Shown: piece after piece, positions 12,013 through 22,887 of the stretch | Position numbering within the stretch: position 1 is the stretch's first letter | How the letters are laid out: each line of letters begins with the position of its first letter | DNA from: Chloroflexota bacterium | GTDB lineage: Bacteria > Chloroflexota > Anaerolineae > J102 | Assembly: GCA_013151415.1 (NCBI GenBank) | Contig: JAADII010000003.1 | Span: 1 to 40,227, forward strand | Reading direction: 5' to 3' | Length of the DNA stretch: 40,227 bases | Translations under genes and position numbers: made by a program | The notes under the pieces: generated by a model | Told to the model about the DNA's origin: nothing | The model's database searches: none | The model's input: only the letters and a program-made list of their open reading frames with translations

Positions 12013-14115
12013 ATGCCCTCCTCCGATCTGGCCCAAGCCTTTCTCGATGACTTCTTTATCGAAGCCGATGAGCATCTTCAAGCCATCACCCGCCATCTTC
12101 TTGCCCTAGAGCAAGGGGATGCATCCGCCGCGGGCTCGCATGAGCGGATCGTCCAGGAGCTGTTTCGTTCTTTTCACACATTGAAAGGATTATGCGGAAT
12201 GGTGGGTTTGTCCGCGGGAGCAAAGTTGAGCCATGCTCTTGAAACCGCGCTCAAAGCGGTGCAACGCGGTGAACTGGATCTCTCGGAGCCGGCCCTCGAT
12301 GCGCTGGTTCTGGGAACGGAAAAGCTGGAAGCCGTCATTGTTTCGATGCGCGAAGGCGGCTCGGGTGCGCCAAGCATCGAAAGAGAGATGGCTCAGCTGC
12401 GCGAGCTGACGGCCCCTCCTCCCGCCGCGAGACGCGTTCGCGAGCCAACGTCTCCTCCGGCCGCCTTCGTCGCATCCCAGGGCGACGCGGACAAAGCGCT
12501 CGCCGCAATGAAAGACTCGCTTTCGGCTTCGGATTGGGAGCAGATTCGTCGCGTCAAAACGCGCGGGGGTCGCCTTTATCTCGTGCTGTTTGCGCCATCG
12601 GCCGAACTTTCAGCTCAGGGCGTCAATGTGGATCATGTGCGCGCCTGGCTGAAGCAACAGGGCGAGCTGCTCAAGGCCATCCCTATTGTGCGCGGCGGTT
12701 CGGTGCAATTCGCTTTTCTCTGGGCGGTGGACGCGCCTCCCGCCAGTCAAGAGGCGTCCTATCTCGATTGGCGTCCGTTGCCTGAAGATTTTGTCCAACC
12801 CGTCACCTCATCCCCCTCCCGGCAGCTCGAGACGCCCGTCAACGGCGACGGCGCCTCGAGTTCGCATAAAAGCGGTGAGCGTGACGCCGCGGGTATGGCC
12901 TCTCGCAAACGACTCCCTTCGAGTGGGTCCATGCGCGTCGATATCGGCCGTTTGGATGAAATTATGCGCCTGGTGGGTGATTTGGTGGTCAGTCGCTCTC
13001 GTCTAAGAGAAACGGTTCACCGGCTCAATGGCGGCCATCCAGACCTGCGACGTGAGCTGGTGGAGCTGGATAAGGATGTGGAGCGCCAATTGCGCTGGTT
13101 GCGCGAGGCCATCATGCGGGCCCGCATGGCCCCCCTGGCCGATGTGTTCGAGCGCATGCCGCTTGTGGTGCGCGATATGGCGCGTTCGTCGGGTAAAGAG
13201 GTGCGGCTGGAGATCGAGGGAGCCAAGGCCGAGATCGACAAGGCCCTGGTCGAGCAGTTGCTCGATCCATTGTTGCATTTAGTGCGCAACGCCATCACGC
13301 ACGGCATTGAGGCCCCAGCCGAGCGAGAGGCTGCGGGCAAACCGCGCGAAGGTCGCATTCTCTTGGCGGCCAGGCCTGAAGGCAACCGCATGGCCATTGT
13401 TGTCTCGGACGATGGTCGCGGGATCGATCTCGACCGCATCGCCAAGCGCGCGGCCGAATTGGGCTGGCTGCCTCCGCACACCCGGCTCAACGAAAGCGAG
13501 GCGCTCGATCTCCTTTGCCGACCGGGCTTTTCCACGCATCAGGCTGCGGATTTGGGCGCTGGGCGTGGGGTGGGCATGGATGTGGTGTGGGACACGGTGC
13601 GCCGCGTGGGTGGCGCCCTGAATATGAGCAGCGCCCTTGGGCGGGGAACCACGTTCATCATGCATTTGCCCCTCACCCTGGCCATCATCGACGCTCTCTT
13701 GGTGCGAATCGGCTCGGAGCGGTATGCTGTGCCCCAGACCGCGATTCAGCGCGTTATCCAGGTGGAGCCCGATAGAATTGTGCGCAGCGCGGTGGGTGAA
13801 CTCTTGCCCTATGAGACGCGCGCGTTGCCGCTGTTGCGCCTGAACGACATGTTGCAGGCCCCTCCGGCCAAGCGTCCGCGCTCGCGACAATTTGCATTGA
13901 TCTCCGGCGGCAATGATCCTGAGGTTGCGCTATTGGTGGACGAGGTTTTGGGGATGCAAGAAATCGTGGTTCGAACCATCGATGACCCCTTGCTCAAACA
14001 TTCGTGCGCGGCCGGGGCCGCGGAATTGGGAGACGGAAGCGTGATACTCATTCTCAACATCCCTCATCTATTGCGGGAAGGAGGCCGTAAACGTGAACGG
14101 TCTATTGCATCATAG
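12013..14115 (+). CDS. cheA: Chemotaxis histidine kinase CheA
   Basis: This encodes 700 residues with the full CheA order. An N-terminal HPt domain carries the phospho-acceptor His55 in LFRSFHTLKGLCG. A segment at about 155-255 (RGGRLYLVLFAPSAELSAQG) stands in place of a classical P2 domain. The dimerisation helices (MRVDIGRLDEIMRLVGDLVV) follow, then the ATPase with N box HLVRNAITHGIE, DDGRGID and GAGRGVGMDVV, then a C-terminal CheW-like domain. There is no attached receiver domain. The kinase would be controlled by the receptor and CheW encoded downstream and phosphorylate the receiver proteins of this operon. The next gene starts inside its end, which suggests coupling. Confidence 0.96.
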   Translation: MPSSDLAQAFLDDFFIEADEHLQAITRHLLALEQGDASAAGSHERIVQELFRSFHTLKGLCGMVGLSAGAKLSHALETALKAVQRGELDLSEPALDALVLGTEKLEAVIVSMREGGSGAPSIEREMAQLRELTAPPPAARRVREPTSPPAAFVASQGDADKALAAMKDSLSASDWEQIRRVKTRGGRLYLVLFAPSAELSAQGVNVDHVRAWLKQQGELLKAIPIVRGGSVQFAFLWAVDAPPASQEASYLDWRPLPEDFVQPVTSSPSRQLETPVNGDGASSSHKSGERDAAGMASRKRLPSSGSMRVDIGRLDEIMRLVGDLVVSRSRLRETVHRLNGGHPDLRRELVELDKDVERQLRWLREAIMRARMAPLADVFERMPLVVRDMARSSGKEVRLEIEGAKAEIDKALVEQLLDPLLHLVRNAITHGIEAPAEREAAGKPREGRILLAARPEGNRMAIVVSDDGRGIDLDRIAKRAAELGWLPPHTRLNESEALDLLCRPGFSTHQAADLGAGRGVGMDVVWDTVRRVGGALNMSSALGRGTTFIMHLPLTLAIIDALLVRIGSERYAVPQTAIQRVIQVEPDRIVRSAVGELLPYETRALPLLRLNDMLQAPPAKRPRSRQFALISGGNDPEVALLVDEVLGMQEIVVRTIDDPLLKHSCAAGAAELGDGSVILILNIPHLLREGGRKRERSIAS

Positions 14116-15208
14116 ACGCGTGCTCACCATCGACGATTCGCTCACCGTTCGCAACTTTCTGGAACGGCTGCTCTCCCGCTGGGGAGCGGAGGTGGAACAG
14201 GCTGCGAGCGGCGAAGAAGGGCTATCCAAATTGCACCAACCGGGCGTTCAATACGATCTCATTTTGCTCGACCTGGTGTTGCCTGACATCAATGGCCTGA
14301 CGGTGCTGCAACGTTTGCGCAAGCACGACGATCAGAGCGCTGTCGTCATTCTCACAGGTGAAGGCGGCGTCAAGTCGGCCATCGCGGCCGTGCGCGATGG
14401 CGCGGACGGTTATATCGAGAAACAGGCTTTGGTGCAAGGCGATGATTACGCCGAGTTCTTTTATGGCCTGGAACAGGCCATGGAGCATCGAGCCGGCATC
14501 GTCACCAAAAAACAGCTCGATTCCATCAAAGCAGATTTCTATGCCATGATTACACATGACCTGCGCAGCCCCATGGGCACCATCATCATGGGGTTGGACA
14601 TGGTATTGAACGACGAAAAGGAGCCGCTCACTCCTCATCAACGGCATATTCTCATGCTGGTGAATGAGGCTGCGGAAAAGACCATGCGGCTCATCAACGA
14701 TTATCTGGACTACGCCAAAATCGATGCCGGCTATCTTAAACTCAATCGTCATCCCATCGATCTACGCGAAGTGGCGCGCGATAGCGTGCGCCTGGCTCGC
14801 GTGCAGGCCGACGCCAAACAACAAACCCTTCATGTTGAATTGCCGGATGAACCGGTTGTCGCCAACGCCGACCCTGAACGGATGAAGCAGGTGTTGGACA
14901 ATCTTCTTTCCAATGCAATCAAATACACCCCAGAGGGCGGAGAAATTTGGCTGCGTCTCTATCAAAAAGGTTTTGAGGCCGTTTTCGAGGTCGAAGACAA
15001 TGGCATCGGCATTCCGCCCGAATTGCTTCCCACCATATTCGCCAAATATCATCGCGTTCCCGGACAATCTCGCCGAGGCATTCATGGCACCGGTTTGGGA
15101 TTGCTCATCGTGAAAGAGATCGTGAAAGAGCATGGCGGCGAGGTGGATGTCCATAGTGAAGGCGTCCCCGGCAAGGGGACCAAGTTTGTCATGAGGATAC
15201 CCCTATGA
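14093..15208 (+). CDS. Receiver domain fused to a histidine kinase (REC-HisKA-HATPase)
   Basis: This encodes 371 residues. An N-terminal receiver domain has the acidic pair TIDDS and phospho-acceptor Asp60 in ILLDLVLPD. A HisKA domain follows with His155 in AMITHDLRSP, then a HATPase domain with NLLSNAIKYTPEGG, VEDNGIGIP and GTGLGLLIV. The receiver comes first and there is no sensor or membrane segment, so input is probably phosphotransfer from CheA. Output would pass through the second phospho-His to another receiver not encoded in the protein. The start is GTG 14093 with GGAGG 8 nt upstream, inside the end of cheA. The stop overlaps cheW by ATGA. Confidence 0.93.
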   Translation: MNGLLHHRRVLTIDDSLTVRNFLERLLSRWGAEVEQAASGEEGLSKLHQPGVQYDLILLDLVLPDINGLTVLQRLRKHDDQSAVVILTGEGGVKSAIAAVRDGADGYIEKQALVQGDDYAEFFYGLEQAMEHRAGIVTKKQLDSIKADFYAMITHDLRSPMGTIIMGLDMVLNDEKEPLTPHQRHILMLVNEAAEKTMRLINDYLDYAKIDAGYLKLNRHPIDLREVARDSVRLARVQADAKQQTLHVELPDEPVVANADPERMKQVLDNLLSNAIKYTPEGGEIWLRLYQKGFEAVFEVEDNGIGIPPELLPTIFAKYHRVPGQSRRGIHGTGLGLLIVKEIVKEHGGEVDVHSEGVPGKGTKFVMRIPL

Positions 15209-15648
15209 AAGAGCCATTCATTTTGTTTCAGATCAACGGCGCTACATATGCCGTTCCGGCCGCGCAGGTTGAACAAGTCGAGATGATCGACAAAGTGACT
15301 CGCGTGCCCAACGCGCCTTTCTTCGTGGATGGCATCGTTTATGTGCGAGGACGGGTCATTCCCGTCATCAACATGCATGAGCGTTTCGGCTTTCCTTCCA
15401 AACCTTATGATCTCCACTCGCGCATCATTGTGGTGCGGCTTGGTGACCGGATCGTGGGTTTGGCTGTGGATAGCGCTCGCGAATTCGTTCAGCTCGACCG
15501 CGAGCAAATGACCCCGCCGCCCGAAATTGTGGCCGACGTCAACGGCGAATATCTTCAGGGCGTCATATCCGAAGATGAGCGATTGATTCTCATTTTAGAT
15601 ATCCAACGGGTGTTGACCCCCGACGAGCAGGATATGCTCGGCGCATAA
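15205..15648 (+). CDS. cheW: CheW coupling protein
   Basis: This encodes 147 residues of a single CheW domain, the SH3-like adaptor linking chemoreceptors to CheA. Typical segments are [20 protein letters not shown] at the start, [20 protein letters not shown] in the middle (the G.....RG...PV.....R signature) and [16 protein letters not shown] near the end. ATG overlaps the previous stop (ATGA at 15205-15208). It lies between two signalling genes in the same direction with gaps of at most 10 nt, so it is almost certainly co-transcribed. Confidence 0.95.
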
Positions 15649-15658
15649 TGGAGAGAGC

Positions 15659-17623
15659 ATGATGAACCTATTGCAACGCGTCTTTTCATCCAATCATCAT
15701 GAAAGCGCAACCTTTTTCGCCCGCGTCAAGGCCGGGGCCGAGGGACAAAAGAAGGCGTTGTTGCGCGCTGTGGATCTCGCCACATCGTTGTTGACTTCGC
15801 TGACCGGTTCCACTGAGCAAATGGACGCGTTGGCCGACGAGGGAGATGTGCTGGTGTCCCACACCAACGAGGCGGCGGCGTCCGTGGAGGAGATCGGCGG
15901 CTCGTTAGGCGGCCTGGCCTCGGCCACGGCCGAGGCCGCGGCTTCGTTGGAGGAAATTTCCGGCGCGGTCAAAGGCATCTCGCTGTTGGCTGGCGATGTG
16001 GACCGTTCCGCGCAAGACATCATCAAGGCGATGAAAGATGTAACGGCCGCGGTGAAAGAAACGTCGATGAATAGCGACGAGATGGTCTCGTCTGTAAACG
16101 AGACAGCGGCGGCCATTGAAGAATTGGCGCAGTCGGTGCAGGGCGTGGCGAGGCACGCGCAGGATGTGGCCCGCGCCGCGGAGATGGCCGCTTCCACCAT
16201 TGTGCAGATGGCTACAGGCATGGGGGAGATCGACGCGGCCGCGGAGACGCTCAACCAATCGGTGGACCAAATTGCCGCGGCCACCGAAGAAATGGCGGTT
16301 TCCATCACTCAAGTGACGGCCAACTCGAAACATATCAGCGAGGTGGCCACCGAATCAGAGAGCGTGGCCAGCCGTTTGCATGAATCGATGAAGACCACGG
16401 CCAAATTATCGCGACAAGCTGCAAACGCAGCCCATCGCACCATGCGCGAGATCGAAACCGGCGTCGAGGCCGTGGAAAAATCCATTGCCGCGTTCGATCG
16501 CATCCAACATTCGGTTTCCGATGCATCCTCCACCATTCGCGCCATGGGACGACGGGCCGAGGAGATCGGCTCGATTGTGGACACCATCAATCTCATTGCC
16601 GAACGCACCAACTTGCTTTCGCTCAACGCCTCCATCGAGGCGGCTCGCGCGGGCGAAGCGGGTCGCGGGTTTGCTGTGGTTGCCGAAGAGATACGCAATC
16701 TTGCAGACCGCTCGGCTGAAGCGACCAAGGAGATCGCCGCGATTGTGCGCTCGTTGCAAACTGCATCACAAGATGCTGTTACAGCCACGCACGAAAGTTT
16801 GAATGTGGTGGACGAGGGCGTCCAATTGGCCGATGCAGCCGCCCGCGGCTTGCAACATATGCGTGAAGGGATCGAAGAATCCGTTCGCTATGCCGATCAG
16901 ATCGCGAATGTGGCGGAAGAGCAGATGTCGGCCAGCCTCAAAGCGCTGCAAGCCGCGCGCTCCACCAATGAGCAGGTGCAGCAAATAGCCAAAGCCATGA
17001 GCGAACAAAAGCTGGCCGTGGACAATGTGCTCCAATCCATCACCGATTTGCGTCGCGTCAGTAAGCAGCTTATGGAATCGACCGAAGAGCAAGCCACCAG
17101 CGCCAATGCCATTGTCCAGGGCGCTCAGCAAGGCGTTGCATTGGGCAACAAGATGCTGCGCGCGGCGGAAGAGCAGGCTTCGGCTGTGGGACAGATTGTG
17201 AAAGCCGTGGAATCCATGCGACAGAATGTGCGTTCCATCGCCCAGCAACTTCAGCGCATCGGCCATGCGGCGGACGTGGTGGTCGCCGACGCCGAACGCG
17301 TGGGCCAGATGATGGGCCAGGTGGATGGCGCCACCACCGAACAGCGCCAAGCTGTTGAGCAGATCACGCTTGCGGTCAATGACATTCGCCGTCAGGCCGA
17401 TCAGATAAACAAGGTGATGATGCAGCAAAATCAGGCGCTGCAACGCTTGACGCAAACCTCCAAGACATTGAGTCAGCGCATTCGTTCCTCTGCGCAAGAA
17501 CAACATCAGGCGATGGAGGCTGGACAAGAGCTTTTGCAAAGTCTAGATGAGGCGCGTCGCGCCAGCGAAGCGATTGTGGCCACGCTGAACGAGCAGTCTT
17601 CGCCGGCGGAGGCGCGGCATTGA
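15659..17623 (+). CDS. Cytoplasmic methyl-accepting chemoreceptor without a sensor domain
   Basis: This encodes 654 residues, nearly all predicted coiled coil, with no transmembrane segment, HAMP, PAS or other sensor domain recognisable. The highly conserved hairpin tip, [20 protein letters not shown], lies at about residues 313-332 and is followed by [15 protein letters not shown]. The two arms are almost equal (about 312 and 320 residues), so the whole protein could form one long antiparallel hairpin. Methylation-helix-like motifs recur in the N-terminal arm (EAAASVEEI at 71, EAAASLEEI at 92, ETAAAIEEL at 148). The C-terminal CheR-docking pentapeptide of enterobacterial receptors is absent. 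Only one nucleotide separates its stop from cheR. Confidence 0.92.
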
Positions 17624-17624
17624 G

Positions 17625-18527
17625 ATGAACATGATGGCCAGCAGTGATCTTTCGGGCGCCGTCTTTTGTTTGCTCCGAGATCTGATACATGGTCGGTTCG
17701 GCGTTTATTACGCGTCCGATCGTTGCGAGATTTTGGCGGATCGTTTGCAGCCGCTGCTCGCCGCCTATGGAGCGCAGTCTTTTTTGGATTATTATTATCT
17801 GCTCAAGGAGGGCGATGCGCGCGCATGGCGCGACGTGGCCGCGGCCTTGGCCGTGAACGAGACCTATTTCTGGCGCGAGTTCGACGCCATCGATGTTCTT
17901 GTAAAGACATGGGTTCCCCGTTGGCAGGCCGAGCGAGCGCAACGACCTGTCCGCATTTGGTCGGCTGGATGCGCCACTGGCGAGGAGCCCTACACCATTG
18001 CCATCGCTCTGGATATGGCGCATCGTTATCTTTATGGCCCCATTGAAATATGGGCTTCGGACGTCAACGCCGAAGCCTTGGCGCGCGCTCGCGAGGGACG
18101 TTATCGGGCGCGCTCATTGCGTTTGCTCCCGCCAGAGGTGAGAAAGCGGTATTTCGAAAAAGAGGATGAAACCTGGTGGCGGTTGCGCTCGATGATTCGC
18201 GACCGGGTGAATTTTCAGGTGATAAATTTGTTCGATCATAATGGCTTGCGCGGTCTTCCCTTGTTCGACGCGATCTTTTGTCGAAACGTTTTTATCTATT
18301 TTTCAGAGGAAGCCATCGCCACGGTGGTGGAGGACATGACCGAGCTTTTGCAACCGGAGGGGTGTCTTTTTCTGGGTGCGGCGGAATCTCTTTTTCGCAT
18401 TCCCCATCATTTGCGTTTGATAGATATGGGCGGCGCGTCCATTTATCAAAAGAGGCGTCCTCTGAAAGAGAGAAGAGCGGCTGTCGAGAACAAAGCGGTC
18501 GCTGACCATGTCGATCGAAGGCGATGA
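17625..18527 (+). CDS. cheR: Chemoreceptor methyltransferase CheR
   Basis: This encodes 300 residues. CheR uses S-adenosylmethionine to methylate receptor glutamates, setting sensitivity. The N-terminal helical subdomain contains VNETYFWREFDA, the NET.F.R signature. SAM-binding motif I is IWSAGCATGEEPYTIAI, then WASDVNAEALARAREG and LFDAIFCRNVFIYF, all canonical. It lies one base after the receptor gene and is followed by cheB, giving the usual methylation/demethylation pair. ATG at 17625 or the second Met two codons later could be the start. Confidence 0.96.
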   Translation: MNMMASSDLSGAVFCLLRDLIHGRFGVYYASDRCEILADRLQPLLAAYGAQSFLDYYYLLKEGDARAWRDVAAALAVNETYFWREFDAIDVLVKTWVPRWQAERAQRPVRIWSAGCATGEEPYTIAIALDMAHRYLYGPIEIWASDVNAEALARAREGRYRARSLRLLPPEVRKRYFEKEDETWWRLRSMIRDRVNFQVINLFDHNGLRGLPLFDAIFCRNVFIYFSEEAIATVVEDMTELLQPEGCLFLGAAESLFRIPHHLRLIDMGGASIYQKRRPLKERRAAVENKAVADHVDRRR

Positions 18528-18596
18528 AAGGCGTTTCGTCGCCTGGTCGCCGCCACATAGCGTTCCTGTTTTTCGCTTGAATTCATGAGGAGACCG

Positions 18597-19682
18597 ATGG
18601 TCAAGAAAGCCCCCATACGCGTTTTAGTGGTGGATGATTCCGCCTACATCCGTAAAGTCGTGCGAGAAATGTTGGAGAGCAGCCCGGATATCGAGGTGGT
18701 GGGCGCGGCTCGCAATGGGCTCGATGCTTTGGAAAAGGTGGCCGAGCTTCGGCCCGACGTGATCACGCTCGACCTGATCATGCCGGAAATGGACGGCATT
18801 GCTTTTTTGCAGAGCATGGCCGAGCGAGAGCCTCTGCCCGTGGTGGTGGTGAGCATTGCCAGCGAGGAGGGCGAGAAGGCGTTGGCCGCACTGGAAGCGG
18901 GCGCGGTGGATTTTGTGCAAAAACCCACTTCGCTGGCTACGGAGAAAGTCTTCGAGATCCAGGAGGAATTGGTGGCGAAGGTGCGGGCCGCGGCCACGGT
19001 TTCGACGTCGAAACTCTCGTCGCTGCTTCATTACGAACCCGCAGCGCCTCCCATGACCATTGCCGCCCCAGTCGAATCGCCGCCCTTCGATGCATTGGTC
19101 ATTGGCGCTTCCACTGGCGGCCCTCAGGCGTTGCGCTATTTGTTGGAGCGTCTCCCCGTTGATTTCCCCCTTCCCGTTGCCATTGTTCTGCATATGCCCT
19201 TAGGTTACACCGGACCATTTGCGCAGCGGCTCAATGCGCTGGCGGCCCTGGAGGTGCGCGAGGCTCGCTCTGGCGACGAGATGCAGCCCGGAAGGGTGCT
19301 AATGGCGCCGGCGGGCTGGCATCTCAAGCTCGCTCGCGAGGGCGAAGCTGTGGTGGCGAAACTGGACGTGCACCCCCTGGAAGCGCGGCATCGGCCTTCG
19401 GTGGACGCCTTATTTCGTTCAGCGGCCGAAATCTATGGTTCGCGAGTGGTGGGCATGGTCCTGACGGGCATGGGAGAGGACGGGAAAACCGGCGCGGCCT
19501 GGATCAAAGCGCAAGGCGGAATCGTGTTGGCCGAAGCCGAGTCAAGTTGCGTGGTCTATGGCATGCCGCGTGCGGTGATCGAGGCCGGTTTGGCCGATGA
19601 GGTGGCCCCCCTCTCCAAAATGTTGCCTGCGTTGTGTCGCCTGGCGAAAATGCGCCTGGCTCATTCTGCATTTTGCGCCTGA
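18597..19682 (+). CDS. cheB: Chemotaxis response regulator / protein-glutamate methylesterase CheB
   Basis: This encodes 361 residues: a receiver domain with VVDDSAYIRK and phospho-acceptor Asp59 in VITLDLIMPEMDG, a linker, then the methylesterase domain. The catalytic triad regions are present: Ser in GASTGGPQ, His in VLHMPLGYTGPFAQRL and Asp in LTGMGEDGKTG. It removes methyl groups from receptors when phosphorylated by CheA. ATG 18597 is preferred because AGGAG lies 4 nt upstream; the in-frame ATG at 18585 would add four residues. A 57-nt gap from cheR is compatible with the same operon. Confidence 0.95.
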   Translation: MVKKAPIRVLVVDDSAYIRKVVREMLESSPDIEVVGAARNGLDALEKVAELRPDVITLDLIMPEMDGIAFLQSMAEREPLPVVVVSIASEEGEKALAALEAGAVDFVQKPTSLATEKVFEIQEELVAKVRAAATVSTSKLSSLLHYEPAAPPMTIAAPVESPPFDALVIGASTGGPQALRYLLERLPVDFPLPVAIVLHMPLGYTGPFAQRLNALAALEVREARSGDEMQPGRVLMAPAGWHLKLAREGEAVVAKLDVHPLEARHRPSVDALFRSAAEIYGSRVVGMVLTGMGEDGKTGAAWIKAQGGIVLAEAESSCVVYGMPRAVIEAGLADEVAPLSKMLPALCRLAKMRLAHSAFCA

Positions 19683-19723
19683 AGAAACCGCCTGTTGCTG
19701 GATTAAATGCTCGATTTGAGCGT

Positions 19724-20074
19724 ATGGCCACAATCTTGATTATCGACGATTCTCCCTTTTGGCGTTCGCATGTGCGTCGTGTGTTGGGAGAGGATTACAC
19801 CTATCTCGAAGCAGCCGACGGATTGGCGGGGCTGGAGCAATTCATGCTCCACGCGCCTGATCTCGTGTGGCTCGATATGACCATGCCGGAAATGCATGGC
19901 CTGGACGCGCTGCGGGTTATCCGTCGGCTAGACTCACAAACGCCGGTGGTGGTGGCCACATCAGAGCCTGAGTTGGCCGATGAGGCTTTGGCCCTGGGTG
20001 CAACCGCTTTTTTTGAAAAACCCTTTCACGATGAGCGTGCGGTGCGTCAAACCGTGCGCTTGTTATTGACATAA
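19724..20074 (+). CDS. Single-domain response regulator, CheY-like
   Basis: This encodes 116 residues comprising only a receiver domain. It has IIDDS with the acidic pair, phospho-acceptor Asp51 in VWLDMTMPEMHG, Ser/Thr in VVATSE and Lys in FFEKPF. As the last gene of the operon it is the natural diffusible output of the CheA kinase. Without flagellar genes in view its target may be pili, gliding machinery or a non-motility process. ATG 19724 gives the standard CheY start. An upstream in-frame extension overlapping cheB has no family similarity. Confidence 0.92.
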   Translation: MATILIIDDSPFWRSHVRRVLGEDYTYLEAADGLAGLEQFMLHAPDLVWLDMTMPEMHGLDALRVIRRLDSQTPVVVATSEPELADEALALGATAFFEKPFHDERAVRQTVRLLLT

Positions 20075-20080
20075 AAACAG

Positions 20081-20098
20081 CGAGAGCATTCGCTCCCG
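20081..20098. terminator. Bidirectional hairpin terminator between cheY-like gene and peroxiredoxin
   Basis: CGAGAGC and GCTCCCG (one A-C mismatch) flank a 4-nt loop between two convergent genes. Read leftward, for the peroxiredoxin transcript, the hairpin is followed after CTG by a run of five T, a good intrinsic terminator. Read rightward it is followed by GTTTCCTTTT, a weaker T-rich tail for the chemosensory operon. Confidence 0.6.
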
Positions 20099-20133: not shown

Positions 20134-20841
20134 TTATTCCGGCTTCCAAATTTTCCATACATTGCCCACCAAATCGGGGCCGGGCTTTAGTGTGAGTTTG
20201 CCTGGCTGCCACTCGGCGGGCGTAGCCTCTTTGCCGCCGCTCGCGCGCACCACCTGGAACGCCTGAATCTGACGAATGGTTTCATCGATGTTGCGCCCCA
20301 CTGGCGGCGTCAAAATCTCTGCGGCCTGGATCACGCCGTCCGGGTCGATGATGAACCGACCCCGCAACTCGACGCCACTATCTTCATCATAAACGCCGTA
20401 CACCTTACCCACATTGCCCGCAGCGTCTGTGGCCATGGGCCAAGGGATGCCCCCCTCCACCATTTTCGAGAGTTCGTGGTCATCCCACATTTTATGAACG
20501 AACACGCTATCGACGCTTATGGAAATGACATTGACTCCAAGCGCCTGTAAATCCGCATACCGGGCGGCGACCGCCGCCAACTCGGTAGCTCAGACATAGG
20601 TGAAGTCGCCCGGGTAGAAGCAGAGCAGCGTCCATCCTTTGGCCACATGCTCAGATAGCTTCACCGAGGTGAACTCCCCTTTATAATATGCTGGGGCCTC
20701 GAAATCGGGAGCGGGTTTGCCAACTTGCGCTCGTATCATGGTTGTCCTCTCCTGTTGGGATTCGGTGATCGGGTGAGGTGGTTCATCCACTGTTTGCACC
20801 ACAGTGGCTCCGGTCGGTCTGGCGCAACCAATGTTCGCCAT
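20134..20841 (-). CDS. Selenocysteine-containing AhpC/Prx-family peroxiredoxin (in-frame TGA at the active site)
   Basis: This thioredoxin-fold peroxidase would reduce hydrogen peroxide and organic peroxides. The frame is open except for one TGA at 20592-20590, exactly where the peroxidatic Cys belongs: FYPGDFTYV, TGA, ATELAAVAARY, against the family pattern FYP.DFTFVCPTEL. Sequence on both sides is intact, in one frame and family-like (VISISVDS, GVELRGRFIIDPDG), so decay is unlikely. A SECIS-like hairpin follows the TGA. Sec would be residue 84, or residue 50 if translation starts at ATG 20739. Both starts have good ribosome-binding sites (AAAGGAGGT at 20841; GGAGAGG at 20739). The usual C-terminal resolving Cys is missing: the VCPA..W segment reads ATPAEW. 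Read with ordinary stops it splits into 20590-20841 and 20134-20580. Confidence 0.88.
20558..20587 (-). promoter_or_regulatory. Candidate bacterial SECIS element inside the peroxiredoxin gene
   Basis: Two nucleotides after the UGA the transcript folds into UACCG (20587-20583) paired with CGGUA (20562-20558). A 5' bulge AGUU comes next, then a perfect 6-bp stem GGCGGC/GCCGCC closing a GGUC loop (20572-20569). The loop begins 17 nt after the UGA. In the E. coli fdhF SECIS a GGUC loop begins 18 nt after the UGA with a bulged U on the 5' side, and SelB reads the loop G-U and that U. The match in loop, distance and bulge is what a SelB-binding element needs. Confidence 0.8.
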
Positions 20842-20907
20842 TTGATGACCTCCTTTGGATGGGAATGAATAGGCGCGAGCCTTGACCCGCGCGAACCGAT
20901 ATGTGGA

Positions 20908-20936
20908 ATCATATGCTGTTGGACGCGTGGCGTCAA
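20908..20936 (-). promoter_or_regulatory. Promoter of the peroxiredoxin gene
   Basis: On the minus strand TTGACG (20936-20931), a 17-nt spacer and TATGAT (20913-20908) give a near-consensus promoter. Initiation near 20901 leaves about 60 nt before ATG 20841. The peroxiredoxin can therefore be transcribed independently of the deacetylase upstream, whose stop lies only a few bases before the -35 box. Confidence 0.7.
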
Positions 20937-21825: not shown

Positions 21826-22887
21826 ATGAGAAGGCATATGTTCGGAATTTTTTCTGACAAAGGGCAAGCGTTGAGTGAATATAGCATCTTGTTGGGGCTG
21901 CTTGCTTTGGTCGCTGCGGCGGGATTATTGCTTATGAGCGGCGGCATGTCCGGCGTTTTGAACAACTTTTCTGAGACCGTGTCCTTAGGTTCAAGCGGTG
22001 GCGAGGGTTTTGGCGACGAAAGCGACGAAGTGGCGGAACTGCCGCCTCATTTGCGAAGAGCTTATCTACTCATCGAGCGCATGCGCGAGTATTATCGCGA
22101 GCATGGCCGTTGGCCACGGGGTTGGCCGCCCCATAACTATCGCGACATTGGCCTCAACCCGGATAAATGGGGCAAGCCGCGACGCGGGTTGATCTACAAC
22201 CCAGCCGGCAATCGTTTGGGCTTAACCAATGCACCAGGCGACAAGTACCAGGTGTATGTTACGACGCCGGATGGAGAGCGATTGCACGTAGCCGATGGCG
22301 AGAGCATTTGGTACAATTTCGATGACGGTCAGTGGTACTATGGAAACATTCGCGACAATGTCCCGGTGGATATTTCAACCCTGGAAATTGTGAAAGAAAA
22401 GCCGCAGAAGCCTCCAAAGCAGGATGATCCTGAGCAACCAGGTCGGCCCGAGAAACCCGATAAACCTGATGGAGATAAACCGGACAAGCCCGAGAAGCCG
22501 GATGAAGACAAGCCCGATAGGCCCGACAAGCCCGAAAAGCCGGATGAGGACAAGCCCGACAGGCCCGATAAGCCCGAAAAGCCGGATGAAGACAAGCCCG
22601 ACAGGCCCGACAGGCCCGAAAAGCCGGATGAGGACAAGCCTGACGAGCAGACAAGCCCGACAGGCCCGATAAGCCCGAAAAACCGGATGAAGACAAGCCC
22701 GACAGGCCCGACAAGCCCGAAAAGCCGGATGAAGACAAGCCCGACAGGCCCGATAAGCCCGAAAAACCGGATGAGGACAAGCCAGACGAGCCGCGGCGCC
22801 ATTGGTGGCCTCCCCGTTTTGAATGGCCCACCAATTGGGAGCGCCCCGCATGGCTACGATGGCCCGCCTGGCCCGGCCAGCCTGTAA
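21826..22887 (+). CDS. Flp/Fap-type pilin-like protein with a charged Pro repeat tail, frameshifted
   Basis: The N-terminus MFGIFSDKGQALSEYSILLG followed by LLALVAAAGLLLM is a class III (Flp) prepilin start: basic leader, G/Q cleavage site, Glu five residues on, then a hydrophobic helix. A globular part to about residue 185 (YYREHGRWPRGWPPHNYRDI, DGERLHVADGESIWYNF) resembles minor pilins. It is followed by a 42-nt tandem repeat encoding KPDEDKPDRPDKPE. At 22645-22649 two extra bases shift the frame, so the protein ends at 22887 with a Ser/Pro-rich nonsense-like tail. The original frame resumes the repeat and continues to 22943 with a Trp/Pro-rich end (RRHWWPPRFEWPTNW). No other pilus genes are adjacent. 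Confidence 0.7.
   Translation: MRRHMFGIFSDKGQALSEYSILLGLLALVAAAGLLLMSGGMSGVLNNFSETVSLGSSGGEGFGDESDEVAELPPHLRRAYLLIERMREYYREHGRWPRGWPPHNYRDIGLNPDKWGKPRRGLIYNPAGNRLGLTNAPGDKYQVYVTTPDGERLHVADGESIWYNFDDGQWYYGNIRDNVPVDISTLEIVKEKPQKPPKQDDPEQPGRPEKPDKPDGDKPDKPEKPDEDKPDRPDKPEKPDEDKPDRPDKPEKPDEDKPDRPDRPEKPDEDKPDEQTSPTGPISPKNRMKTSPTGPTSPKSRMKTSPTGPISPKNRMRTSQTSRGAIGGLPVLNGPPIGSAPHGYDGPPGPASL
22452..22789 (+). repeat. Coding tandem repeat, about 42 bp per unit
   Basis: About seven imperfect units encode KPDEDKPDRPDKPE with D/G, K/R and wobble-base variants. One unit is cut short: GACGAG is followed by two extra bases (22648-22649) and then the array resumes in another frame. The same GACGAGC sequence also ends the whole array at about 22786-22792. 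The break therefore looks like slipped or recombined copies of the array terminus inside the array. Confidence 0.8.

Follow-up and report, generated by a model that had tools for sequence, protein, structure and literature searches.

A selenocysteine peroxiredoxin gene of the PrxU family in a Chloroflexota genome, with an invariant N-terminal cysteine and a conserved internal start site

Selenocysteine (Sec) peroxiredoxins have been known since 2001, when PrxU of Eubacterium acidaminophilum, an enzyme with a TxxU active site, was reportedly described by Sohling et al. A survey counted 12 Sec peroxiredoxins (PMC1794560), 43 were found in the Sargasso Sea (PMC1088965), and the group is covered in a review (PMC13188914). 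A split annotation has been noted for the Sec peroxiredoxin gene of Desulfococcus multivorans (PMC5109826). The locus analyzed here lies in a 40,227-nucleotide stretch of Chloroflexota DNA, referred to as the window. Standard gene calling splits the gene into two fragments, and reading its TGA codon as Sec rescues it. By sequence, it is a further PrxU in Chloroflexota that joins a known bacterial selenoprotein family, and it indicates selenoprotein production in this genome. Members of the family share an invariant N-terminal Cys and a conserved internal start site, for neither of which a description was found in the open-access literature. Together, these two features give a concrete explanation, open to testing, of how Sec peroxiredoxins that lack a resolving Cys may be recycled.

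The prxU reading frame and its Sec codon

The features that define the gene are:
20134–20841, minus strand: prxU, Sec peroxiredoxin, 235-residue long form
20590–20592, minus strand: TGA read as Sec84, the peroxidatic residue (PGDFTYVU)
20558–20592, minus strand: SECIS region, with an inner hairpin (20578–20563, GGUC tip) and a predicted lower stem (20587–20558), assigned by folding and by covariation of the inner stem

The gene is read on the minus strand from 20841 to 20134. Two apparently broken ORFs (20841–20590 and 20580–20134) become a single frame of 235 residues when TGA is translated as U, and the sole TGA, codon 84 (20592–20590), falls in the motif P-G-D-F-T-Y-V-U-A-T-E-L. The original prediction had given the correct coordinates, leaving the strand unstated, and had rightly identified the only stop as a TGA at the peroxidatic position. 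The protein scores 381.2 bits against the NCBIfam PrxU model NF040737 (profile positions 2–231 of 233), above the curated equivalog cut-off of 270 bits, and 174.1 bits against the AhpC model TIGR03137, below its cut-off of 272. It contains the Pfam AhpC-TSA domain and the 1-cysPrx C-terminal domain. The AlphaFold monomer model (mean pLDDT 86) superposes on AhpC and 2-Cys Prx structures at ~2 to 2.5 Å rmsd, and the predicted fold is AhpC-like. The closest named relative is found in a Caldilineaceae MAG (L050), with 87% identity over the post-Sec part, which makes an origin of the window in Chloroflexota probable. Peroxidase activity would be expected from family membership.

The genome, which is 97.7% complete, encodes the machinery to decode TGA as Sec: a tRNA-Sec with anticodon tca (77 bits versus a cut-off of 47), and SelA, SelB and SelD, all above their own cut-offs in family searches. 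A search for selA, selB, the tRNA-Sec and selD had been suggested along with the original prediction, and all four are present. In the selD gene (L017, G000:C192:8086-9021:-), the active-site motif SCAGU includes a TGA in frame. SelD is thus apparently a selenoprotein itself, giving the genome at least two UGA-decoded genes. Adjoining selD, from about position 727 of the L017 sequence on the plus strand, is a lipoprotein-like protein of the SCO1/SenC type (FFGYTFCPDVCPLTL).

Among the window genome and 60 relatives, PrxU was detected above the cut-off in 20, and all 20 carry TGA at the Sec position. Overall, 114 related loci were compared, including 80 found through the region after Sec as well as further Chloroflexota loci, and TGA occupies the peroxidatic position in 113 of them. 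The phyla, as labelled in the records, are Chloroflexota, Desulfobacterota, Acidobacteriota, Actinobacteria, Firmicutes, Nitrospirota, Spirochaetes, Planctomycetes and others. PrxU is also carried by the culturable Desulfatibacillum alkenivorans (L097) and Desulfatitalea alkaliphila (L087). With such retention, the placement of the TGA at exactly that codon is not a matter of chance. Apart from the Sec TGA, the frames are intact in nearly all relatives, which do not show the decay that might have spoken against the original prediction. An extra TAA lies within the matched frame of L032, L137 and the second copy in G027 (C15:4796-5419); these copies may be assembly errors or decaying genes. The only Cys form (TGC) among the 114 loci is L144, a second PrxU-like copy in G136. 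It has F in place of Cys74, lacks the GCARP motif and has gained a Cys in the C-terminal motif (ATPACW), which suggests that the resolving chemistry changed together with the Sec/Cys exchange.

The main evidence for the hairpin directly downstream of the TGA is covariation, since folding highlights only a tight 44-nt hairpin; a 71-nt stretch gave no significant z-score. The inner stem is a 16-nt hairpin spanning columns 15–30, counted from the T of TGA, in which 95% of cells are paired. Pairs swap between AU, GC, CG and UA at columns 15-30, 16-29, 18-27 and 21-24, and the GU at the tip is invariant across the aligned loci. The whole-structure covariation score is 0.329, compared with a shuffled mean of 0.115, and 0 of 500 shuffles reach 0.329; slid controls gave at most 0.142. 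The lower stem that folding predicts for the window sequence lacks conservation (36% paired), and an Rfam scan of the region returned chance matches only, none to a SECIS family. Judged from the aligned sequences, the hairpin 3' of the TGA has the anatomy of a bacterial SECIS, and by the known mechanism it would be bound by SelB.

On paper, the locus consists of two separate ORFs, as would be the case for an AhpC pseudogene decaying after a nonsense mutation. This explanation is extremely improbable: the stop coincides with the peroxidatic codon, where 113/114 relatives from many phyla have TGA, a covarying hairpin follows it, and the full Sec machinery is encoded in the genome. The retention of TGA in relatives led us to reject the pseudogene reading. 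The family score, the covariation and the conserved TGA, the last seen in the homologue alignment that had been suggested as a check, uphold the original assignment to Sec peroxiredoxins of the PrxU type. With high confidence, the sequence evidence identifies the locus as a working prxU with a Sec peroxiredoxin core.

The missing resolving Cys and the N-terminal extension

Two codons are relevant to how the enzyme is recycled:
20221–20223, minus strand: Thr207 (EATPAEW), replacing the C-terminal resolving Cys of AhpC
20824–20826, minus strand: Cys6, the invariant Cys of the N-terminal extension

The C-terminal resolving Cys (VCP) is missing in every Sec form examined, with T, M, L, A or V in its place. 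The substitution in ATPAEW had been recognized in the original prediction. Without this residue, the selenenic acid must be reduced in another way. The recycling partner had accordingly been predicted to differ from that of AhpC, which is reasonable given the absence of the C-terminal Cys throughout the Sec family; the account was incomplete in that it did not mention the invariant N-terminal Cys.

PrxU members have an extension of 30–45 residues ahead of the folded domain (~35 in the window protein). In the window protein, residues 1–21 have a pLDDT below 50, consistent with predicted disorder, and the ordered domain begins at about residue 37. The extension varies, apart from a motif that surrounds a single Cys and reads GCARPTGGPVGE, GCVxPAxGP or GCQRPxIKK. 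This Cys, located at about residue 6–10, is present in 111 of 111 sequences and forms an invariant column in the 50-sequence alignment (A4), and the linker that follows varies freely. TGT and TGC are used 57 and 54 times at this position, which points to selection on the amino acid and to translation of the extension. Its conservation is not an artefact of selecting sequences because 80 loci were found through the post-Sec part.

From this pattern, Cys6 is a candidate resolving thiol in the long form; alternatively, it could be an anchoring or regulatory thiol. In the monomer model, the disordered tail cannot be placed. Cys74 (LCFYPGDF) is likewise invariant in A4, and it is F in the lone Cys-form paralogue, L144. 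Both observations fit a different scheme, in which Cys74 is the resolver, or in which PrxU has no resolver at all and works strictly as a 1-Sec enzyme reduced by an external thiol, the extension serving localization or oligomer assembly. We consider this scheme possible, with a likelihood well below even; it gives no reason for the absolute conservation of a Cys in a disordered tail with a freely variable linker.

Start sites and the two proposed forms

The signals for expression, from upstream to downstream, are:
20908–20936, minus strand: promoter-like TTGACG-17-TATGAT (consensus match only)
20849–20856, minus strand: Shine-Dalgarno AAAGGAGG of the upstream start
20746–20753, minus strand: internal in-frame Shine-Dalgarno (AGGAGAGG)
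20737–20739, minus strand: internal ATG (Met35), proposed start of a 201-residue short form near the beginning of the folded domain
20079–20094, minus strand: terminator-like hairpin leading into a T run (consensus match only)

The promoter and terminator, both anticipated in the original prediction, were thus found as consensus matches. The upstream start codon is the ATG at 20841, preceded by AAAGGAGG, and the upstream starts of relatives have similar sites. A conserved neighbouring reductase was sought in the 3-kb flanks of PrxU loci, and no recurrent neighbour was found; within these flanks, prxU is solitary, without a conserved partner gene. In the window, a chemotaxis-like run on the plus strand (14093–20074; hybrid kinase, CheW-, MCP-, CheR-, CheB- and CheY-like by sequence) stops shortly before prxU. 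The C-terminal half of a protein encoded at 21826–22887 is rich in PDKPEKPDED-type repeats; the DNA there is repetitive, with large overlapping ORFs on the opposite strand.

The internal start of the window gene reads AGGAGAGG-ACAACC-ATG (20753–20737, minus strand). Nearly all family members have such a site just ahead of the folded domain. Relatives have internal Shine-Dalgarno sequences such as AAGGAGGT or CAGGAGGT, mostly 5–9 nt before an ATG or GTG; the AGGAGAGG of the window is weaker than the AAGGAGGT of most relatives. A Shine-Dalgarno match of 6 nt or more occurs at the internal site in 88% of 103 genes, versus 32% after synonymous recoding (at most 45% in 200 recodings), in which codons were resampled with the usage of each gene. 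Before other in-frame Met codons of the same genes, the frequency is 4%. In 12 representatives below 80% identity, the site occurs in 92%, versus 29% under recoding (at most 67% in 1000). The four genes without Met at this position all use GTG, an alternative start codon, even though they encode Val most often with GTC. A conserved internal in-frame start site in PrxU genes is therefore well supported by sequence comparison, and we propose that both forms may be produced.

Put together, these features suggest the following mechanism. The hairpin immediately 3' of the TGA would direct SelB and tRNA-Sec to decode codon 84 as selenocysteine, and Sec84 of the AhpC-fold enzyme would attack peroxide and become a selenenic acid. 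In the long form, Cys6, on its flexible tether of ~35 residues, would be the most likely candidate to form an Se–S bond with Sec84, which a thioredoxin-like donor would then open. The second in-frame start, with its Shine-Dalgarno and the Met35 ATG, would give rise to a short form without the Cys6 tether, reduced directly by an external thiol. Extended to the family, this suggests that every prxU gene may yield two selenoproteins per message, a long one whose tethered Cys replaces the C-terminal resolver through an Se–S bond and a short 1-Sec form, which might assemble into mixed rings that tune recycling or signalling. This family-wide proposal is tentative, its likelihood falling somewhat short of even.

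A simpler account retains the Sec PrxU and allows one form only, with the internal Shine-Dalgarno and Met being relics of an ancestral start or serving, for example, ribosome pausing, and with Cys6 in a regulatory or anchoring role. Lys and Glu residues alone generate a good Shine-Dalgarno match at about a third of sites, which lends this account some weight, and we hold it to be plausible at somewhat less than an even chance. A relic, however, would be expected to have eroded at synonymous positions in the various phyla, yet the site persists at a frequency well above that under synonymous recoding, mostly at the preferred spacing of 5–9 nt from the ATG or GTG.

Comparison with known systems

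PrxU of E. acidaminophilum belongs to the same family as the window protein by the curated cut-off, and the two share the TxxU active site and the peroxidatic TGA; the window member differs in coming from a Chloroflexota genome. AhpC and the typical 2-Cys peroxiredoxins (Salmonella AhpC, 1n8j; Arabidopsis 2-Cys Prx, 5zte; human Prx2) have the fold and the PxxxTxx(C/U) motif in common with PrxU, whereas PrxU has Sec in place of Cys, no C-terminal resolving Cys, and a Cys-bearing N-terminal extension. Such an extension is also present in human Prx4, where its Cys is Cys51, and Prx4 C51A structures are among the structural matches of the PrxU model; the resemblance does not imply that the two extensions are related. 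Unlike PrxU, human Prx4, a secreted eukaryotic enzyme, retains the C-terminal resolving Cys. Prx-like thiol:disulfide oxidoreductase selenoproteins resemble PrxU in placing Sec in a Prx/Trx fold and are distinguished by a UxxC active site, compared with TxxU in the window protein (PMC1088965, PMC13188914).
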